Under the pieces are notes generated by a model, which was not told where the DNA came from, did no database searches, and worked only from the letters and a program-made list of their open reading frames with translations. Source: a virus. From it: a stretch of 27,387 bases of DNA. The translations under genes and the position numbers were made by a program. Within the stretch, counting starts at the first letter, position 1; the number at the start of each line of letters is the position of its first letter. The stretch lies in IMG/VR virus record IMGVR_UViG_3300028874_000033, positions 1-27,387 of that record. One strand, 5' to 3'. Positions 627 to 27,387 of the stretch are shown one piece after another.

Positions 627-2393
627 CTATCCTATGTAATCTAGAGATTGGGTAGTTGCTACTGCACTGATAATACTGCCAACGTTTGTCGCAGTGCTAC
701 GAATATTTATTTGAAACCATTCCCCAGGATTACCATCGGCAACGTAGCTAATAGACATGGCGGGGCCGTCTGGATTGGCCGGAAGAAAATAGCTTTGCCT
801 AGACACTGCAATACTGCTTGAGTTTTGTATCTGAAGGTCGAGTACTCCGCCGTTAAATGAACCGGTCATGACTACGTCACAAGTAATAAGCATCTTGGAC
901 GCCCCCATTGGGAGTGCTAGGCGATTGCTGTTTGTAGAGGACCAACCACCTTGGGAATCGTAGTTAAGTGTATCAAACTTGATTATGTTGTTACCAGTGG
1001 ATAACGGCTGACTAGCCGATCTGGTTACTTTTGTCGCCCTAAGATTCTGAGAATAAATCCTCATACTCAGAGGGATTCTAGCAGTGTAAATAGAACCATC
1101 CGGATTAAGGGAATCATTCGCCATGAAATTGAATCGGAATTGTGAGTAGGATGGCTGTCCGGAACTTGCTGCGTAGTTTGCGAAGTAGGCGTCTATATTG
1201 CCAATCTGGCCGCCGGCGTCGATTACATACGGAACTTCAAGCGGCCCTGCACAGTTCACAATGCTGATACGCTGCGGGATTTGACCTTGCAATGACACAA
1301 TAGCAGAGTCGTTCGCAGAAGCGGGCCCAGCAAAGCACTCACAATCAACAATAGATACTGTATTCCCACGGAAAGGGTAGGTTGTGACAGGTGGTGCAAA
1401 CCAATACACAACTGGCATACCCGCAGACTCGCCGCCAAAGCGTGAATTCCGTGCAAAGAAAGAGCCTTTGAACACGTCAGCCCACCTGACGTTTGCCAAT
1501 CTATCAATACCTTGCGTCCCCATATCTGGAACGCCGAACATATTATTCAAATAAATATTAGGGTGTCCGTCAGTGGCAAGAGATCCGTTAACAAAAACGG
1601 GCGTGCTTGAAGAAAAGTTGTCTTTTGATATAAACGCCCAACAATCATCAAAAACTGCTGAGTCGCAGTAGTTGAGCAATATCTGATGCGGCTTGTAGAA
1701 TGCGCAATTCTTGACAGTCAAGTTTGCCGATAAATGCGATGTCGCGCCACCTGTCGGAAAAGTCTTAATAGAAAATTCAGAGCATAGGCTAAAAGTACAG
1801 TTTTCGATATTCCATCTAGTTGTGTCTATATTGTTATTCTGAAGTCTTACTTGACTATTACCACCAACAAAATTTATGCCTTTGATGTCCCACTGATACG
1901 CCTCATTGATTCCGCTAAGAATTTCTTTATTAATGTCCCATTGAATAAAGAATGCGTTGTCACCAGTAAGTTTAAAATACGATCCCGGCATAATTTCGTC
2001 AGTAAGCTTGTATACACCTTTGGAGGCAGAAAGATTAATGGCTTGGCTTACATAGCCTCCAGTATTTGTTCCGACAGCTGTCTGATAACCGCCTGGAGCA
2101 CTTGACCACGCCGCTGCGTTTTTGATTGCCAAGGTGTCGTCAGTTATACCGTCCCCTTTTGCACCAAACTGACGGATATTTCCAGCAAAAGGCGTTACAA
2201 ACTTCCATCTGCCCCCATCGTTAGCGACGATTATAGAACCACCATCACTTGAACTGCTGGTGTCCGTAACATCTAGGTAATAATCAGCTGAGCCATTATC
2301 TCCTGGAAGATAGTATCCTAGAGTTTTTGCACTGTTGTATACTGTCTTGTCAAGTGTGCATAGAGAAGCAATGTTTGGGACTACAGTATACAT
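627..2393 (-). CDS. tailspike with pectate-lyase-like beta-helix
   Basis: A receptor-binding tailspike of about 588 residues. After about 70 residues of particle-binding head comes a GAKGDGITDDT motif (about residues 72-90), the hallmark of phage pectin-lyase-fold spikes. A long Asn/Val/Ile-rich series of short strands typical of a right-handed beta-helix follows. The last ~150 residues look like a separate beta-sandwich, possibly carbohydrate-binding or trimerising. Such spikes bind and often depolymerise host O-antigen or capsule; the substrate cannot be read here. I chose ATG 2391-2393, preceded by AGGGTGG; a TTG at 2426 lies in the loop side of a hairpin. The gene is visibly more A+T-rich than the head genes and sits behind a terminator-like hairpin, suggesting a swapped module. 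Confidence 0.85.
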   Translation of the reverse strand: MYTVVPNIASLCTLDKTVYNSAKTLGYYLPGDNGSADYYLDVTDTSSSSDGGSIIVANDGGRWKFVTPFAGNIRQFGAKGDGITDDTLAIKNAAAWSSAPGGYQTAVGTNTGGYVSQAINLSASKGVYKLTDEIMPGSYFKLTGDNAFFIQWDINKEILSGINEAYQWDIKGINFVGGNSQVRLQNNNIDTTRWNIENCTFSLCSEFSIKTFPTGGATSHLSANLTVKNCAFYKPHQILLNYCDSAVFDDCWAFISKDNFSSSTPVFVNGSLATDGHPNIYLNNMFGVPDMGTQGIDRLANVRWADVFKGSFFARNSRFGGESAGMPVVYWFAPPVTTYPFRGNTVSIVDCECFAGPASANDSAIVSLQGQIPQRISIVNCAGPLEVPYVIDAGGQIGNIDAYFANYAASSGQPSYSQFRFNFMANDSLNPDGSIYTARIPLSMRIYSQNLRATKVTRSASQPLSTGNNIIKFDTLNYDSQGGWSSTNSNRLALPMGASKMLITCDVVMTGSFNGGVLDLQIQNSSSIAVSRQSYFLPANPDGPAMSISYVADGNPGEWFQINIRSTATNVGSIISAVATTQSLDYIG

Positions 2394-2824: not shown

Positions 2825-5307
2825 ATCGAATATCCAACAATCGAAGCGGTAAATGTAGGTGATCCTGCGGTGTTCGAAGTAGAAACATATAATGTTTGTG
2901 GTGTTGCTATGTCAATAGAATAATTTCCATTTAGCGCGCCGCCAGCCGACACTGTTCCTGAAACGTTCTGCGATCCAATTGAAGTTGTTGTCGAGTTAAT
3001 CGTAATGCCACAGTTAGACACCGCTGTAGAAGAGTTGGTCATACCTCCAGAGGCCCTAACGGCATTTAACGGGACGGCAGAAGATAGCGGGACAGGCGAC
3101 AAAACTAACCCGCCACTTACTCCAGAAAATACTTGAACTGGAACTATACCAATGCTTCGATCATTTTGATAAATTACCTTGAACTGGCCGGAGCCATTAG
3201 TGGGCAGCACACTAACCAGTCCAGATGCAGTATAACCGGAAGGCATATTTGCCCCAGTATATACACTGGTAGCCGCCGTTGATGTGGCATTTGTAGCAAG
3301 AAGCACAGCAGATAAGGTAGTGGGGTTATAGATTACATACAGCGCGACATAGCCATTAGCCGGCGCTGATCCGACATCCATGCCACCAGGCCCCGTTGTA
3401 GCCAGCCCGATAGTATTACTGAAACTTGATATACAATATCGCAGGCCGCCGAGTCCAGTCTCTACAATCACCTCATCCGCGCTCATGCTGGCAGTTGCCG
3501 AAGCAGTGCTGACGCTAATGCGTAGGTTCCTCACCTGACCAGCAATTCCAGATACCTGGCCGAATTGAAGCGCCTGCTGACTGCGCATGGCGGCTGCTAT
3601 CTGTTCGGCGGCTCCGGTGCAGAACAGCAGAATGTATGAACCAGATCCGACCGAGCTGTTCCATTGAATCCAGGCATCCCCGTTGGCGATAAGCTCGCCA
3701 CCCTGGAGTGCTGCGTGTGCGGCGCCGGCAAGTTGAACTACGCCGAGACCGTCATTAATCGTACTCGCACCATTGTTTGCGGTCTTGACCTTAAAGCGCA
3801 ATACCTGGCCTTCAGCCCGCGTGGTGATCGCAGGAGTGAAAGCGCAGACATAGGTGTTGACCGTGCCAGTGTCAGTGGCGAATGCCAGGGTGCCAGCCTG
3901 GAATTGTCCAGCATTGATGGCTTGCCGGCTTTGCGTTGCCGGCGCAACCGGAAACGCACCGCCAGATGACGCAATGATTACCCAGCAACCACCGCCCACT
4001 GTGCTGTTGTATTGCAACGAGACTTCGCTGCCAGCAATAATTTCACCGCCTTGCAACGCGGCATATCCACCACCAAGAATTTGGAGGCCCGCCAGCCCGT
4101 TCGGACTGAAAACACTAGCCCCAGTATTTGCAGTAGCAGCTTTAAATTTAAGGGTCAAGCCATCTTTTAATGCAGTGATCGCAGGAGTGAAAGCGCAGAC
4201 ATAGGTGTTGGCAGTGCCAGTATCCGCGGCGTATGCAAGGGCCTCCGTTTGGATCTGACCAGCATTGACGGCGTGCAGGCTCTGGGTTGCCGGCGCCATT
4301 TGCTCAGGTGCCCCGGTGCAGAATAGTAGGACGTAGGAACCCCCGCCAATGGAAGAATTCCATTGAACCCAGGCGTCTCCAGTAGCGAACAGTTCTCCGC
4401 CCTGGAGCGGCAAGTTGGAGCCCCCCACCAACGCAACAACCCCCAGACCGTCATTGATAGTGCTCGCGCCAGTATTGGTGACATTGACCTTGAAACGCAG
4501 CGGAGCTGCCTCGCTGCGAGATACCAGCGCAGGCGTGAAGGCGCAGACATAAGCATTTGCAGTCCCGCTATCAACCGCATAGCTCAGCGCACCCGATTGC
4601 ACATTCAATTTAGTGGCATACGCCGACAAATCCGGCACATTTGCTTGATACCAGGACTGAGCCGATTCTGACCAGACCGCCATAAAAGGTATTCCTGCCT
4701 GAATATCGCCAGCAGCAAACTGAGAGCCGTTCCCCTTCAAAAGCGGCGCATTAGTCGGAAATGCCAACAAGCCAACGCTTGCCGAGATTGTCACGCTTCC
4801 GGTGTTGGTGGCGGCCGGCGTTATCAGGACTGGCGCATGGAAATTCGCAGTCGCGGCTGAGACCGAGTTTTCCCCCAGCGTAGACGGAAGAGAAATCACC
4901 AGGCCGTTTGCAGTACCGGTCGCAGCACTGCTCAAATAGAAGCCACGCTGAATCTCTTCTATCTGGACGAGGCGGTTCTCTGAGCCGCGCGTGGCGAAGT
5001 TTGCAACGATGCTATTCAGCGCCCACCCTTTCGCCGTCGTTCCTTCCATGCCACGGATGACCGTCAAGTTGTCGCCCGATACGCTGATCAGGTGACAGAT
5101 CTCAAAGGTAGTTTCCTGCTGATCGGCGATGGTGATCTTGGAATAGATTGGGACGCTCCCCGATATCCCGGATGGGATGATCGGGTCATAAGTCAGAGTG
5201 GCCGCAAAGATTGAGCCAGTCCCAGGAAATACCGGAATAACAGTCTGGCTGGCGGTGATGTTTGCCGCCAGGGCGCCTTGAACATTGTTGCCAAATCCTA
5301 GAATCAC
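2821..5307 (-). CDS. tail fibre protein with three tandem modules
   Basis: An 828-residue fibre. The N-terminal ~120 residues (starting ILGFGNNVQGALAANIT) contain a beta-rich attachment domain with the pattern VIRGMEGTTAKGW, seen in phage fibre proteins that dock to the baseplate. Residues ~237-587 hold three repeats of about 117 residues, each with YVCAFTPA, NTGAS-type, LQGGE and a Trp/Gln-rich strand. The C-terminus is Ser/Thr/Gly/Ala-rich and beta-rich. The start is GTG at 5305-5307 with GGGAG six bases upstream. The downstream neighbour is the assembly-like protein, overlapping by four bases. Host range is probably shared between this fibre and the separate tailspike; which binds first is unknown. 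Confidence 0.8.
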   Translation of the reverse strand: MILGFGNNVQGALAANITASQTVIPVFPGTGSIFAATLTYDPIIPSGISGSVPIYSKITIADQQETTFEICHLISVSGDNLTVIRGMEGTTAKGWALNSIVANFATRGSENRLVQIEEIQRGFYLSSAATGTANGLVISLPSTLGENSVSAATANFHAPVLITPAATNTGSVTISASVGLLAFPTNAPLLKGNGSQFAAGDIQAGIPFMAVWSESAQSWYQANVPDLSAYATKLNVQSGALSYAVDSGTANAYVCAFTPALVSRSEAAPLRFKVNVTNTGASTINDGLGVVALVGGSNLPLQGGELFATGDAWVQWNSSIGGGSYVLLFCTGAPEQMAPATQSLHAVNAGQIQTEALAYAADTGTANTYVCAFTPAITALKDGLTLKFKAATANTGASVFSPNGLAGLQILGGGYAALQGGEIIAGSEVSLQYNSTVGGGCWVIIASSGGAFPVAPATQSRQAINAGQFQAGTLAFATDTGTVNTYVCAFTPAITTRAEGQVLRFKVKTANNGASTINDGLGVVQLAGAAHAALQGGELIANGDAWIQWNSSVGSGSYILLFCTGAAEQIAAAMRSQQALQFGQVSGIAGQVRNLRISVSTASATASMSADEVIVETGLGGLRYCISSFSNTIGLATTGPGGMDVGSAPANGYVALYVIYNPTTLSAVLLATNATSTAATSVYTGANMPSGYTASGLVSVLPTNGSGQFKVIYQNDRSIGIVPVQVFSGVSGGLVLSPVPLSSAVPLNAVRASGGMTNSSTAVSNCGITINSTTTSIGSQNVSGTVSAGGALNGNYSIDIATPQTLYVSTSNTAGSPTFTASIVGYSI
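3546..4597 (-). repeat. three tandem ~351-bp coding repeats in the fibre gene
   Basis: Three in-frame copies of a ~117-residue module follow each other (roughly 4243-4597, 3892-4242 and 3546-3891; limits approximate). Copies two and three share an exact 36-base block at 4175-4210 and 3824-3859, offset by 351 bases. The first copy matches the same block imperfectly around 4530-4552. This is internal duplication of a fibre segment, and the exact shared block indicates recent duplication or gene conversion. Confidence 0.8.
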
Positions 5308-25385: not shown

Positions 25386-25416
25386 TAAAAAAGCCCGAGG
25401 TTTTTAGGCTCGGGCT
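25386..25416 (-). terminator. strong intrinsic terminator
   Basis: On the minus strand an 8-bp perfect stem AGCCCGAG / CTCGGGCT (plus 25409-25416 and 25392-25399) with a 9-base loop is followed directly by six T residues. This is a textbook Rho-independent terminator. It closes the transcript carrying ninG, tRNA-Thr and the structured segment, and separates it from the lysis/packaging operon. Confidence 0.9.
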
Positions 25417-25700
25417 CCGACCGGGAAACTCCCAGTCCTCTGATGCAGATGTCCGGTGCTGATCTCCGGCGTTGGTAGTGCTGGGGATCAAACCCAGTGC
25501 CTCCTGAAACTGCCCCTACCCGGACAAGACGGTCTTGCGACCCGATGCGGACTTGAACCCTGCATCTCGACTTCGCGTGACTGGCGCATCAGCCTGCGCA
25601 TTCATCTGCATCGATTGACGTCATCAGCTTTCGGTCGCCTTGAGGTCCACTACACGCCAATGGCGTCAATCGATAAAGACGATTCCCGCATCATGCGGGC
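25417..25700 (-). ncRNA. candidate structured RNA between tRNA-Thr and terminator
   Basis: This stretch contains no convincing ORF but many exact complementary pairs. They are 11 bp (ATCGATTGACG, 25664-25674, with 25610-25620), 10 bp (25603-25612 with 25442-25451), and 7 bp TGTCCGG/CCGGACA (25520-25526 with 25450-25456). Hairpins include CTGGG-7-CCCAG (25481-25497), GGTC-GCAA-GACC with a GNRA loop (25531-25542), GATGC...GCATC around a TTCAAGT T-loop (25544-25566), GCGCA...TGCGC (25584-25599) and CCCGCA...TGCGGG (25685-25699). The 11- and 10-bp pairs overlap by three bases and could be alternatives. It ends at the terminator. I do not recognise an Rfam class. Short ORFs (29-38 codons) exist but lack ribosome sites. 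Confidence 0.55.
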
Positions 25701-25766
25701 ACTTGTTTTGCGCTGGTTGAACTGTTGCACGCATCTTGTACTCGCTTGCGGCGTTCCTGCGCTTTC

Positions 25767-25842
25767 TGGTGCCATCACAAGGAATCGAACCCTGGACATC
25801 CTGATTACAAGTCAGGCGCTCTACCAACTGAGCTACAACGGC
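25767..25842 (-). tRNA. tRNA-Thr (anticodon UGU), CCA encoded
   Basis: A 76-base cloverleaf. The 7-bp acceptor GCCGTTG pairs with TGATGGC (with G-U pairs), and the D arm GCTC-AGTTGGTA-GAGC is present. The anticodon arm CCTGA-CTTGTAA-TCAGG has anticodon TGT (Thr, ACA codons), and the T arm CAGGG-TTCGATT-CCTTG is intact. Discriminator A is followed by an encoded CCA. Transcribed on the minus strand, it begins four bases after the ninG stop, so it is probably cut from the same transcript. All invariant positions looked at are intact. Confidence 0.95.
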
Positions 25843-25846
25843 AAGG

Positions 25847-26428
25847 TCAAAGCATAGCCTTGAGCTGGCGCAATTTCAAACGGTATTCGGCGGTGATCGC
25901 CTTCAGCTCTTCGACGGTGTATCGCTTGGGTTCATGCGGACCTTCCAGCCATTCGACCTTTTCGATGCCGATGCGCTTTATCAGCTCTGCGCGATATGGC
26001 CCGAGATTCCCGGACTTAGCCATGTTGCAGTTGCGATTACATTGCAAATGCACATTAAGTGGCTCATAACGGAGCGCCGGATTGCTTCCAGAAGGCTTGA
26101 AATGTCCGGCTGCATATTGAACATCTGCCGTAGTTCCGCACGATATGCATGGAAGGCCTGCGTCCCTTGCGCGCACCCAGGCATTGAAGGCAGTCTGCGC
26201 CTCACGCATATACTGACCTTTCGTCTTGACGCGCTCCTTAGCCTCCCGAGACGCTTTGCGCTCTACCTGAGCCAGCGACCTGCACGCCTTCTCATGGTTC
26301 ACATCCTTGATCGCCAGACCACACTTTGGACTGCACACGGACTGACCCAGGCGCTGCGGCGGGAAGCTGGCGCCACAGGCCGGGTTCTTGCAAAGCTTGT
26401 TCTTTGGTTGCTTGGCTGTCAGAGACAT
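25847..26428 (-). CDS. ninG: NinG / Rap recombination protein
   Basis: A 193-residue homologue of lambda NinG (Rap), a DNA-branch-binding endonuclease that promotes recombination. It has an N-terminal zinc-binding part, C13-x4-C18 and C32-x3-C36, and a charged helical linker. The HNH-like core has LPCISCG (C94, C97), AAGHF (H109), H127 and C130-x3-C134, then KSGNL and GPYR as in lambda. The C-terminal EELKAITAEYRLKL also matches the lambda protein, as does length (lambda is 204). I chose ATG 26426-26428 with GGAG seven bases upstream; an ATG 14 codons earlier has AGGAG but adds non-homologous residues. It overlaps the antirepressor's read-through frame by ten bases. Confidence 0.93.
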   Translation of the reverse strand: MSLTAKQPKNKLCKNPACGASFPPQRLGQSVCSPKCGLAIKDVNHEKACRSLAQVERKASREAKERVKTKGQYMREAQTAFNAWVRARDAGLPCISCGTTADVQYAAGHFKPSGSNPALRYEPLNVHLQCNRNCNMAKSGNLGPYRAELIKRIGIEKVEWLEGPHEPKRYTVEELKAITAEYRLKLRQLKAML

Positions 26429-26580: not shown

Positions 26581-27102
26581 TCATTCGCCGGCCAGCCGAT
26601 ACATCACGGCATTGACGCGCAGGAACTCGCGGAACTCTCTTTCGTTGGCGCCAAGAAGCTTGCAGACCTGGCGGAAGGTCATCGACCCGGATGCTTCGAC
26701 GTATTGATCGACGAACTCGACCTTTGGAGCGGCGATAGCCAGTTGCTGGGCTTGTTGTTCGATCTGCTCTTGCTGGTCGGCGGCCAGACGGAGAGCGTCT
26801 GCGAATGATTTTGGCAGCGCAGCAGGATTTCCGTTTTCCAATTCTTGCCAGCGGTCAACGAGAGCTGCTGTGAACTCAGGGGAAAGTTGAGCTACCACAA
26901 TGAAGCTGTCCCGCTTGCAGACCTGGAACACGGCAACGCTCTGGCCAAGGTGATTTTTAACTTCCCCCAGTGGGGGGAGTTGAATAGTGCCCCGCTCTGA
27001 AAGTCGCTCAATCGACTGCTTTACCTTGTCATGCCTCGACCCAACCAGTTCGGCGATCTGCTGGCTACTCATCGTGATTGAGCTGCTGGTTGCGATGTTC
27101 AT
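26581..27102 (-). CDS. Rha/KilAC-type antirepressor, truncated by an in-frame TGA
   Basis: A 173-residue regulator. Residues ~8-90 are a Rha-type domain (MSSQQIAELVGSRHDKVKQS, then LSPEFTAALVDRWQELE). Residues ~103-123 form a Gln-rich coiled coil. Residues ~124-173 are the first half of a KilAC domain (PKVEFVDQYVEASGSMTFRQ, then LLGANEREFREFLRVNAVMYR). It stops inside the domain; the rest is encoded in frame beyond the stop. Such proteins control lytic development or antagonise a repressor. ATG 27100-27102 has GGGAG eight bases upstream and overlaps the NinX-like stop (ATGA). Truncation may abolish or change activity. Rha or KilAC naming is by motif only. Confidence 0.8.
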   Translation of the reverse strand: MNIATSSSITMSSQQIAELVGSRHDKVKQSIERLSERGTIQLPPLGEVKNHLGQSVAVFQVCKRDSFIVVAQLSPEFTAALVDRWQELENGNPAALPKSFADALRLAADQQEQIEQQAQQLAIAAPKVEFVDQYVEASGSMTFRQVCKLLGANEREFREFLRVNAVMYRLAGE

Positions 27103-27387
27103 TGCATCAGCTCCCGTGGCACGCTTACGGTATCGCCGAGGACAGATGCGACGATTGCGCGGCAGGCGGCTACCAGATGGGTTCTGGCGTGCGCGGCCGT
27201 ACCACAGGAAGGAATCTCGGCCCGTAGCGCAAGGTCGGTGACCCACTCAAATTCGATGGCGTACTTCTCGATCAGCGGTCCGCCCTGACTCCAGTCGGTG
27301 GATGGCCGCCAAAATTGGGGGAATCCATCATAGTCCCGAAGTACTTCGCCATGGTATATCCGCAAGGAAATACCTTCATCCTGTGCG
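27099..27387 (-). CDS. NinX-like (DUF2591) protein, 5' end outside the window
   Basis: The frame is open to the right edge. A TTG at 27365 could start an 88-residue product, but the codons upstream (Ala-Gln-Asp-Glu-Gly-Ile-Ser) are in frame with no stop, so the gene probably begins outside the window. The FWRPSTDWSQGGPLIEKYAI segment and the final LVAACRAIVASVLGDTVSVP match the pattern of NinX / DUF2591 phage proteins (W-PS-DWS-gGplIe- and laA-Ra-V-s--Gd-v-vP). Their molecular role is unknown. Its stop overlaps the antirepressor start (ATGA), so the genes form one early transcript with ninG. Confidence 0.65.
   Translation of the reverse strand, partial: AQDEGISLRIYHGEVLRDYDGFPQFWRPSTDWSQGGPLIEKYAIEFEWVTDLALRAEIPSCGTAAHARTHLVAACRAIVASVLGDTVSVPRELMQ

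Follow-up and report, generated by a model that had tools for sequence, protein, structure and literature searches.

A conserved, covarying RNA unit with a hypervariable insert in phages and prophages, including a copy downstream of a tRNA-Thr gene

The DNA analyzed in the present work (hereafter, the window) is the whole of positions 1 to 27,387 of the virus record IMGVR_UViG_3300028874_000033, 27,387 nucleotides in length. According to the gene calls and the tRNA search, the minus strand is the transcribed one in the region considered; along it a NinG-like gene is followed by tRNA-Thr, a segment harboring the RNA unit described here, an intrinsic terminator, and then the lysis, terminase, portal, and structural genes. 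An Ant-like antirepressor gene (phrog_63, 26581-27246, minus strand) lies 5' of ninG. The features of the locus are the following:

26470-25847, minus strand: NinG-like gene (gene calling).
25851-25879, minus strand: weak sigma-70-like promoter TTGAAA-17-TATGCT directly 5' of the tRNA (9 of 12 matches, about one such site expected by chance; not significant).
25767-25842, minus strand: tRNA-Thr, anticodon TGT (UGU), directly 5' of the segment (ARAGORN; Rfam tRNA model, 67.9 bits).
25685-25699, minus strand: small hairpin CCCGCAT/ATGCGGG, outside the conserved core.
25656-25680, minus strand: 5' strand of helix P0 (R), perfect core 25664-25674.
25604-25628, minus strand: 3' strand of helix P0 (R'), perfect core 25610-25620, overlapping the P1 5' strand.
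25603-25612, minus strand: 5' strand of helix P1, GATGCAGATG.
25583-25602, minus strand: P2 hairpin AATGCGCAGGCTGATGCGCC, stem 25595-25599/25584-25588, kissing bases GCTGA 25589-25593.
25471-25582, minus strand: variable insert (putative cargo), 112 nt.
25544-25566, minus strand: T-arm-like element in the insert, GATGCAGGGTTCAAGTCCGCATC.
25531-25542, minus strand: GNRA-capped hairpin GGTC-GCAA-GACC.
25473-25520, minus strand: tRNA-like acceptor plus T-arm minihelix (T-arm 25481-25497) ending in CACTACCA; weak, with an MFE z of 0 and a weak mascRNA-like match in the Rfam scan.
25452-25470, minus strand: P4 hairpin GCCGG-AGATCAGCA-CCGGA, kissing bases TCAGC 25458-25462; the outermost pair is G-A in the window copy.
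25442-25451, minus strand: 3' strand of helix P1 (R''), CATCTGCATC.
25419-25437, minus strand: short hairpin GACTGGGAGTTTCCCGGTC, between the unit and the terminator.
25387-25416, minus strand: intrinsic terminator AGCCCGAG-CCTAAAAAC-CTCGGGCT-TTTTTT (-15.2 kcal/mol, z -3.3).

An earlier note on this DNA had proposed a structured non-coding segment between the tRNA-Thr gene and the terminator, and all the features that it named were found. ARAGORN and Rfam place tRNA-Thr(UGU) at 25842-25767, the intrinsic terminator closes the segment at 25416-25387, and the coding-potential caller retrieved no gene on the coding strand from 25847 to 25273, in agreement with the claimed lack of a convincing ORF. 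The perfect 11-bp pairing of the note corresponds to 25664-25674/25610-25620 (the P0 core) and its perfect 10-bp pairing to 25603-25612/25442-25451 (P1), and the two have exactly three bases in common (25610-25612); the GNRA tetraloop hairpin lies at 25542-25531 and the T-arm-like elements at 25566-25544 and 25497-25481. The core unit, at 25442-25612, is, however, narrower than the proposed segment, and variable, unconserved parts contain several of the other small hairpins. The 349-nt segment folds at -135.3, compared with -120.1 ± 6.1 for shuffled sequences (z -2.5; 2 of 100 shuffles as good); it is homology and covariation that raise it above chance.

The unit, on the minus strand, is composed of helix P1, the hairpin AAUGCGCAGGCUGAUGCGCC (P2), the variable insert, the hairpin GCCGGAGAUCAGCACCGG (P4), and the P1 partner; about 56 nt are conserved and the remainder varies. 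Reading the flanks of the copies revealed this same layout nearly everywhere, with P4 usually in the form GCCGG-AGAUCAGCA-CCGGC. The loops of P2 and P4 are complementary (GCUGA/UCAGC), GGCUGA in P2 pairing with AUCAGC in P4, a contact that does not appear in the earlier note.

The covariation alignment comprised 104 gap-free copies, in which 24 pairs were scored, with shuffles and slid pairings as controls. Changes on both sides were found in 19 of the 24 pairs (9.3 in shuffled alignments), and the covariation score was 0.358 versus 0.103 in the control. The paired cells reached 95.5% (82% in shuffles, 27-43% in the slid controls), the first percentage being inflated because pairing in P1 and P4 was among the criteria by which the copies were selected, whereas pairing in the P2 stem and in the loop contact was not. 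The covarying pairs are distributed over P1 (seven of eight), the P2 stem (five of five), P4 (three of five), and the loop-loop contact (three of five), so that the covariation named as a check in the earlier note is extensive, both in its 10-bp helix and in the P2-P4 contact. Moreover, when contigs were picked by the P2 20-mer alone, the combined P4 and P1 score reached 11 in 90% of them, versus 13.6% with shuffled flanks, and the P4 loop contained CAG in 69 out of 73. Compensatory loop changes were observed in three copies carrying GACTGA with GATCAGT, in copy L019, where GTCTGA is found with GATCAGAA (GTCTGA/GATCAGA), and in copy L222, where GGTCGAT is found with AGATCGACA (GGTCGAT/ATCGACA); compensation is absent from one copy with GTCTGA and from one with GACTGA. 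The loops may pair within one molecule or between copies.

These comparisons show a conserved core of P1, P2, and P4 which, with the P2 and P4 loops paired, is predicted to form a compact ring beside P1. The ring serves as a fixed frame: the insert that it holds between P2 and P4 is hypervariable, and another variable domain is found upstream, in helix P0, which has a strand in common with P1. In our judgment, the existence of a genuine, conserved RNA family is practically certain.

The first relative was retrieved as one short, strong BLAST match in Pseudomonas phage Jeremy. The exact 20-base P2 core is present in 83 IMG/VR stretches and in 26 stretches of GTDB species genomes, some of the latter not being real copies. 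Relaxed scans and a descriptor search, followed by curation, yielded at least 196 copies in 186 contigs, and the homologues in phages, whose search the earlier note had indicated as a check, amount to hundreds. A covariance model built from the copies (R1, whose E-values are rough) gives the window copy 49.8 bits and matches 49 out of 50 phage records, the exception being HK022, and at least 6 of 398 Pseudomonadota species genomes. The unit is harbored by phages P1 (at least two copies), mEp460, and phiEt88, and by Klebsiella phages; virulent phages carry it too, namely ZC03 (Schitoviridae), within a tRNA cluster, and Magnus (Ackermannviridae), in two copies. Any part of the 661-nt P1 array was matched in 1,348 of 5,426 complete E. 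coli genomes, and the copies are almost always without annotation in phage and E. coli genomes. A strongly conserved, covarying RNA appears to have escaped annotation in P1, many lambdoid prophages, and more than a thousand complete E. coli genomes.

In phage P1 the units lie between tRNA-Thr and tciA, the two main ones occupying 65635-65767 and 66064-66163 of OP279344.1. The whole of this region (L086:2913-3900, plus strand) consists of arrayed units, some complete and some degenerate, with a third, weak copy at 3687-3809 (19.8 bits) and T-arm minihelices, one of which has a TCCACCA end, overlapping a small annotated ORF. L279, a Verrucomicrobiota metagenome-assembled genome, also contains a strong unit (85.5 bits, near 1202-1221); either the hosts are more diverse or the binning is wrong.

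The upstream helix was surveyed in the 174 copies with enough upstream sequence. A P0 helix scoring at least 11, with its 3' strand overlapping or abutting the P1 5' strand, was found in 84 of them versus 2 of 174 shuffled sequences, and a score of at least 12 was reached by 77 versus none; about half of the copies are without a strong P0. The P0 loop ranges from about 25 to 190 nt and contains tRNA-like bodies or T-arms in Jeremy, ZC03, AH02, and P1. Of the 84 strong P0 helices, 55 compete with P1 for seven of its eight bases. This competition makes the switch between the two helices that the earlier note had suggested possible.

The inserts range from 11 to about 180 nt, and 161 of them fall into 133 clusters, 111 of which are singletons. 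One insert (ACTACAGTAGTGCGCGCTT...GGGGCTTGCTACAACCCTG) was found with four different P1 helices, including that of phage P1 copy 2; phage P1 copy 1 and mEp460 have an almost identical unit at quite different genomic places. In the pairs of copies sharing a contig, the core agrees at 14-20 of 20 positions and the P1 helix at seven or eight of eight in four of the eight pairs, whereas the similarity between the inserts is about that of shuffled sequence in all eight. For a non-coding RNA, it is unusual that a single phage combines a fixed scaffold with unrelated inserts.

Concerning the known RNAs, none of the Rfam 15 families matched the unit, in the window or in the other members, at gathering or relaxed thresholds. 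In the literature searched, most subscription journals lying outside the search, no paper contained the core motif or described such a family, and the name Proteo-phage-1, considered as a candidate, was not found. The Pas sRNA paper describes different RNAs, and the cores of the hammerhead and other ribozymes are incompatible with the unit. ARAGORN and the Rfam tRNA model gave no match over the unit; the likeness to tRNAs resides in T-arm motifs and extended-acceptor bodies within P0 and the inserts, while the conserved core differs. The outcome that the earlier note had set against its own proposal, decayed tRNA genes only, is refuted, even if tRNA-like fragments are present in the variable regions. 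Skipping-rope RNA (RF02924) reached 24.4 bits, below its cut-off of 36.7, over the tRNA-like P0 of ZC03 and off the unit, and no match over the cut-off was obtained in the 50 phage records.

GOLLD and ROOL are large phage and prophage RNAs found near tRNA islands, with kissing loops and a variable linker that sometimes contains tRNAs (PMC12286853). The unit shares with them the phage and prophage location, the frequent vicinity to tRNAs, a variable stretch, and the kissing loops, the last supported by the compensatory loop-loop changes. Nevertheless, GOLLD and ROOL are several hundred nucleotides long with an elaborate conserved fold, while the unit has about 56 nt plus the insert and is unrelated in sequence; an RNA-only multimeric cage is a further trait of GOLLD and ROOL. 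Membership was rejected, given that no Rfam covariance model matched the unit in any scan and that it falls short of their length. The put RNA of HK022 is a cis-acting antiterminator of about 70 nt made up of two adjacent stem-loops, which no P1 encloses and for which no kissing contact is described (PMC9378689). The unit resembles put as a short structured RNA of lambdoid early leaders, the mEp460 copy lying just 3' of the inferred pL and about ten pL-side phages being consistent with such a position; unlike put, units also occur in tRNA clusters and late operons, away from an early promoter, and with large inserts. Homology to put was likewise rejected, since R1 has no significant match in HK022 and the core differs there by at least five to six mismatches. 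The unit represents a new family within a known kind, the structured phage RNAs, and its identity as a new conserved family is close to certain, although an earlier account not registered in Rfam is possible in the journals outside the search; the new structured RNA that the earlier note had thought possible is supported by the Rfam scan, the homologues, and the covariation.

As for the function, we lean tentatively, with somewhat less than even confidence, toward a trans-acting stable scaffold presenting exchangeable RNA cargo. According to this model, the unit would be transcribed inside phage operons, often together with tRNAs, and trimmed out of the transcript or ended by a terminator; it would then act in trans as a stable scaffold displaying an exchangeable cargo, sometimes a tRNA-like T-arm. 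The activity would reside in the cargo, and the kissing loops would either stabilize the frame or link several copies. The resemblance to GOLLD and ROOL lies in the kissing loops, the variable linker, and the tRNA neighborhood, in a far smaller unit. The tandem copies with unrelated inserts, the tRNA-like contents, and the tRNA neighborhoods favor a scaffold in trans over a cis element, for which one copy should suffice. When a tRNA lies within 500 nt of a unit, it is on the same strand in 27 cases out of 27 (8.5 expected nearby); T-arm motifs outside called tRNAs are enriched 6- to 10-fold within units and in their vicinity (41 on the same strand versus 3 on the opposite one), and, together with extended-acceptor tRNA bodies, they occur in the P0 and inserts of Jeremy, ZC03, P1, AH02, and the window. 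On the other hand, for about 85% of the copies the sequence examined contains no tRNA closer than 500 nt, and the inserts are barely more structured than an intergenic control (mean z -0.43 versus -0.08), which is weak as proof of cargo and fits tolerated drift as well. If the scaffold model were true, the unit would be a small, tractable example linked to the unexplained GOLLD/ROOL type; P1 and mEp460 grow in laboratory E. coli, so that structure, expression, and function can be directly tested. A broader proposal, possible but doubtful in our opinion, is a modular phage RNA cassette system, in which a constant kissing-loop scaffold would be passed between unrelated phages, duplicated in arrays, and loaded with diverse exchangeable payloads (tRNA mimics, decoys, antisense pieces), e.g., against host defenses targeting tRNA or RNA.

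In ZC03 the unit lies within its tRNA cluster, and its P0 is an extended-acceptor tRNA-like body. In an annotated tRNA-Arg of this phage (L291:2917-2998, plus strand), the acceptor helix is extended to about 18 bp and the anticodon region is odd; rather than a working tRNA, this feature probably represents the tRNA-like P0 domain of the unit.

Many copies lie in the leaders of pL (early-left) and late operons, which would suit a cis element equally well. By analogy with put, the unit might be a leader RNA acting in cis on the polymerase that transcribes it, so that terminators and Rho are overcome in tRNA arrays and in long untranslated leaders, and the insert would then be filler that is tolerated; we regard this as rather unlikely. 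The operon-leader positions and the terminators favor it. With gene calls made outside the named phages by our own trained caller (which matched the annotation where checked), the unit shares the strand of the upstream gene in 143 of 161 cases and of the downstream gene in 139 of 155 (about 90%). The frequent upstream genes encode CI-like repressors, Q, and NinG, the downstream ones endolysin, holin, RecT/Bet, ParB, and terminase. Read by position, the units in whole phage records fit antitermination sites: about 10 lie downstream of an S24/CI repressor on the pL side, about 13 between NinG/Q and lysis or terminase, and two on the pR side; three lie after terminase. An intrinsic terminator follows within 60 nt in 27 of 176 units (15%) versus 13 of 217 other genes (6%; p = 0.002); the 10-fold enrichment of a first scan fell to 2.5-fold against this better control. 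In the window, about 25 kb of late genes on the same strand follow the unit, from which the strong terminator separates them; the promoter scan found no promoter-like site in the interval. In mEp460, two operator-like sites are followed by the unit, then by a terminator hairpin, and finally by the pL genes; the annotation includes no N gene. The two sites (L281:2664-2702, plus strand) are copies of TTGCnnAnnnnGCAA downstream of cI, and another lies at 1880, between cro and cI; they look like CI operators marking pL and pR.

Nevertheless, most copies are without a recognizable downstream terminator, and several late-leader members, phiEt88 among them, lie downstream of Q. Nearness to operon starts was discarded as cis evidence, given that the asymmetry (p = 3e-7) is the same for other large gaps (log-rank p = 0.57). 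Moreover, a leader RNA leaves the tandem copies with unrelated inserts and the tRNA cargo unexplained, and the unit also occurs in the ZC03 tRNA cluster (Schitoviridae) and in Ackermannviridae. Were the put-like reading true, RNA-only antitermination would extend from HK022 to many phages.

Less probable still is an RNA-processing or mRNA-stability element, whose P0 helices (15-25 bp) and T-arm minihelices would be RNase III and RNase P sites at which polycistronic transcripts of the phage are cleaved, with the ring protecting the new ends. The high-scoring P0 helices, absent from shuffled sequences, the T-arm and tRNA pieces nearby, and the location of the window unit between a tRNA and coding genes are in line with it; the near-invariant loops, the insert exchange, and the tandem arrays remain unexplained, and half of the copies or so have no strong P0. 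A site for recombination or packaging that works as folded DNA, in the manner of attC cassettes, or a packaging RNA like the phi29 pRNA, whose two complementary loops on a three-way junction the unit resembles, is very improbable: the array behavior, the cassette exchange, and the closeness of some copies to terminase genes speak for it, but the unit is absent from some related phages (HK022), occupies pL, pR, late, and tRNA positions alike, follows transcription in its strand in about 90% of cases, and varies through G-U at several pairs, which favors RNA over folded DNA.

Two neighbors of the unit deserve mention. In L046, a match to isrJ (RF01393) over the cut-off (3735-3813, minus strand), with a terminator at its end, lies directly 5' of two tRNAs and the unit; it looks like the 6S-like leader of a late promoter dependent on Q, in which case isrJ would have to be reinterpreted. 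In L061, an abiF RNA (RF03085, 55.6 bits; 1719-1755, minus strand) overlaps the terminator directly 3' of two tandem units, suggesting a possible AbiF defense system beside the array.
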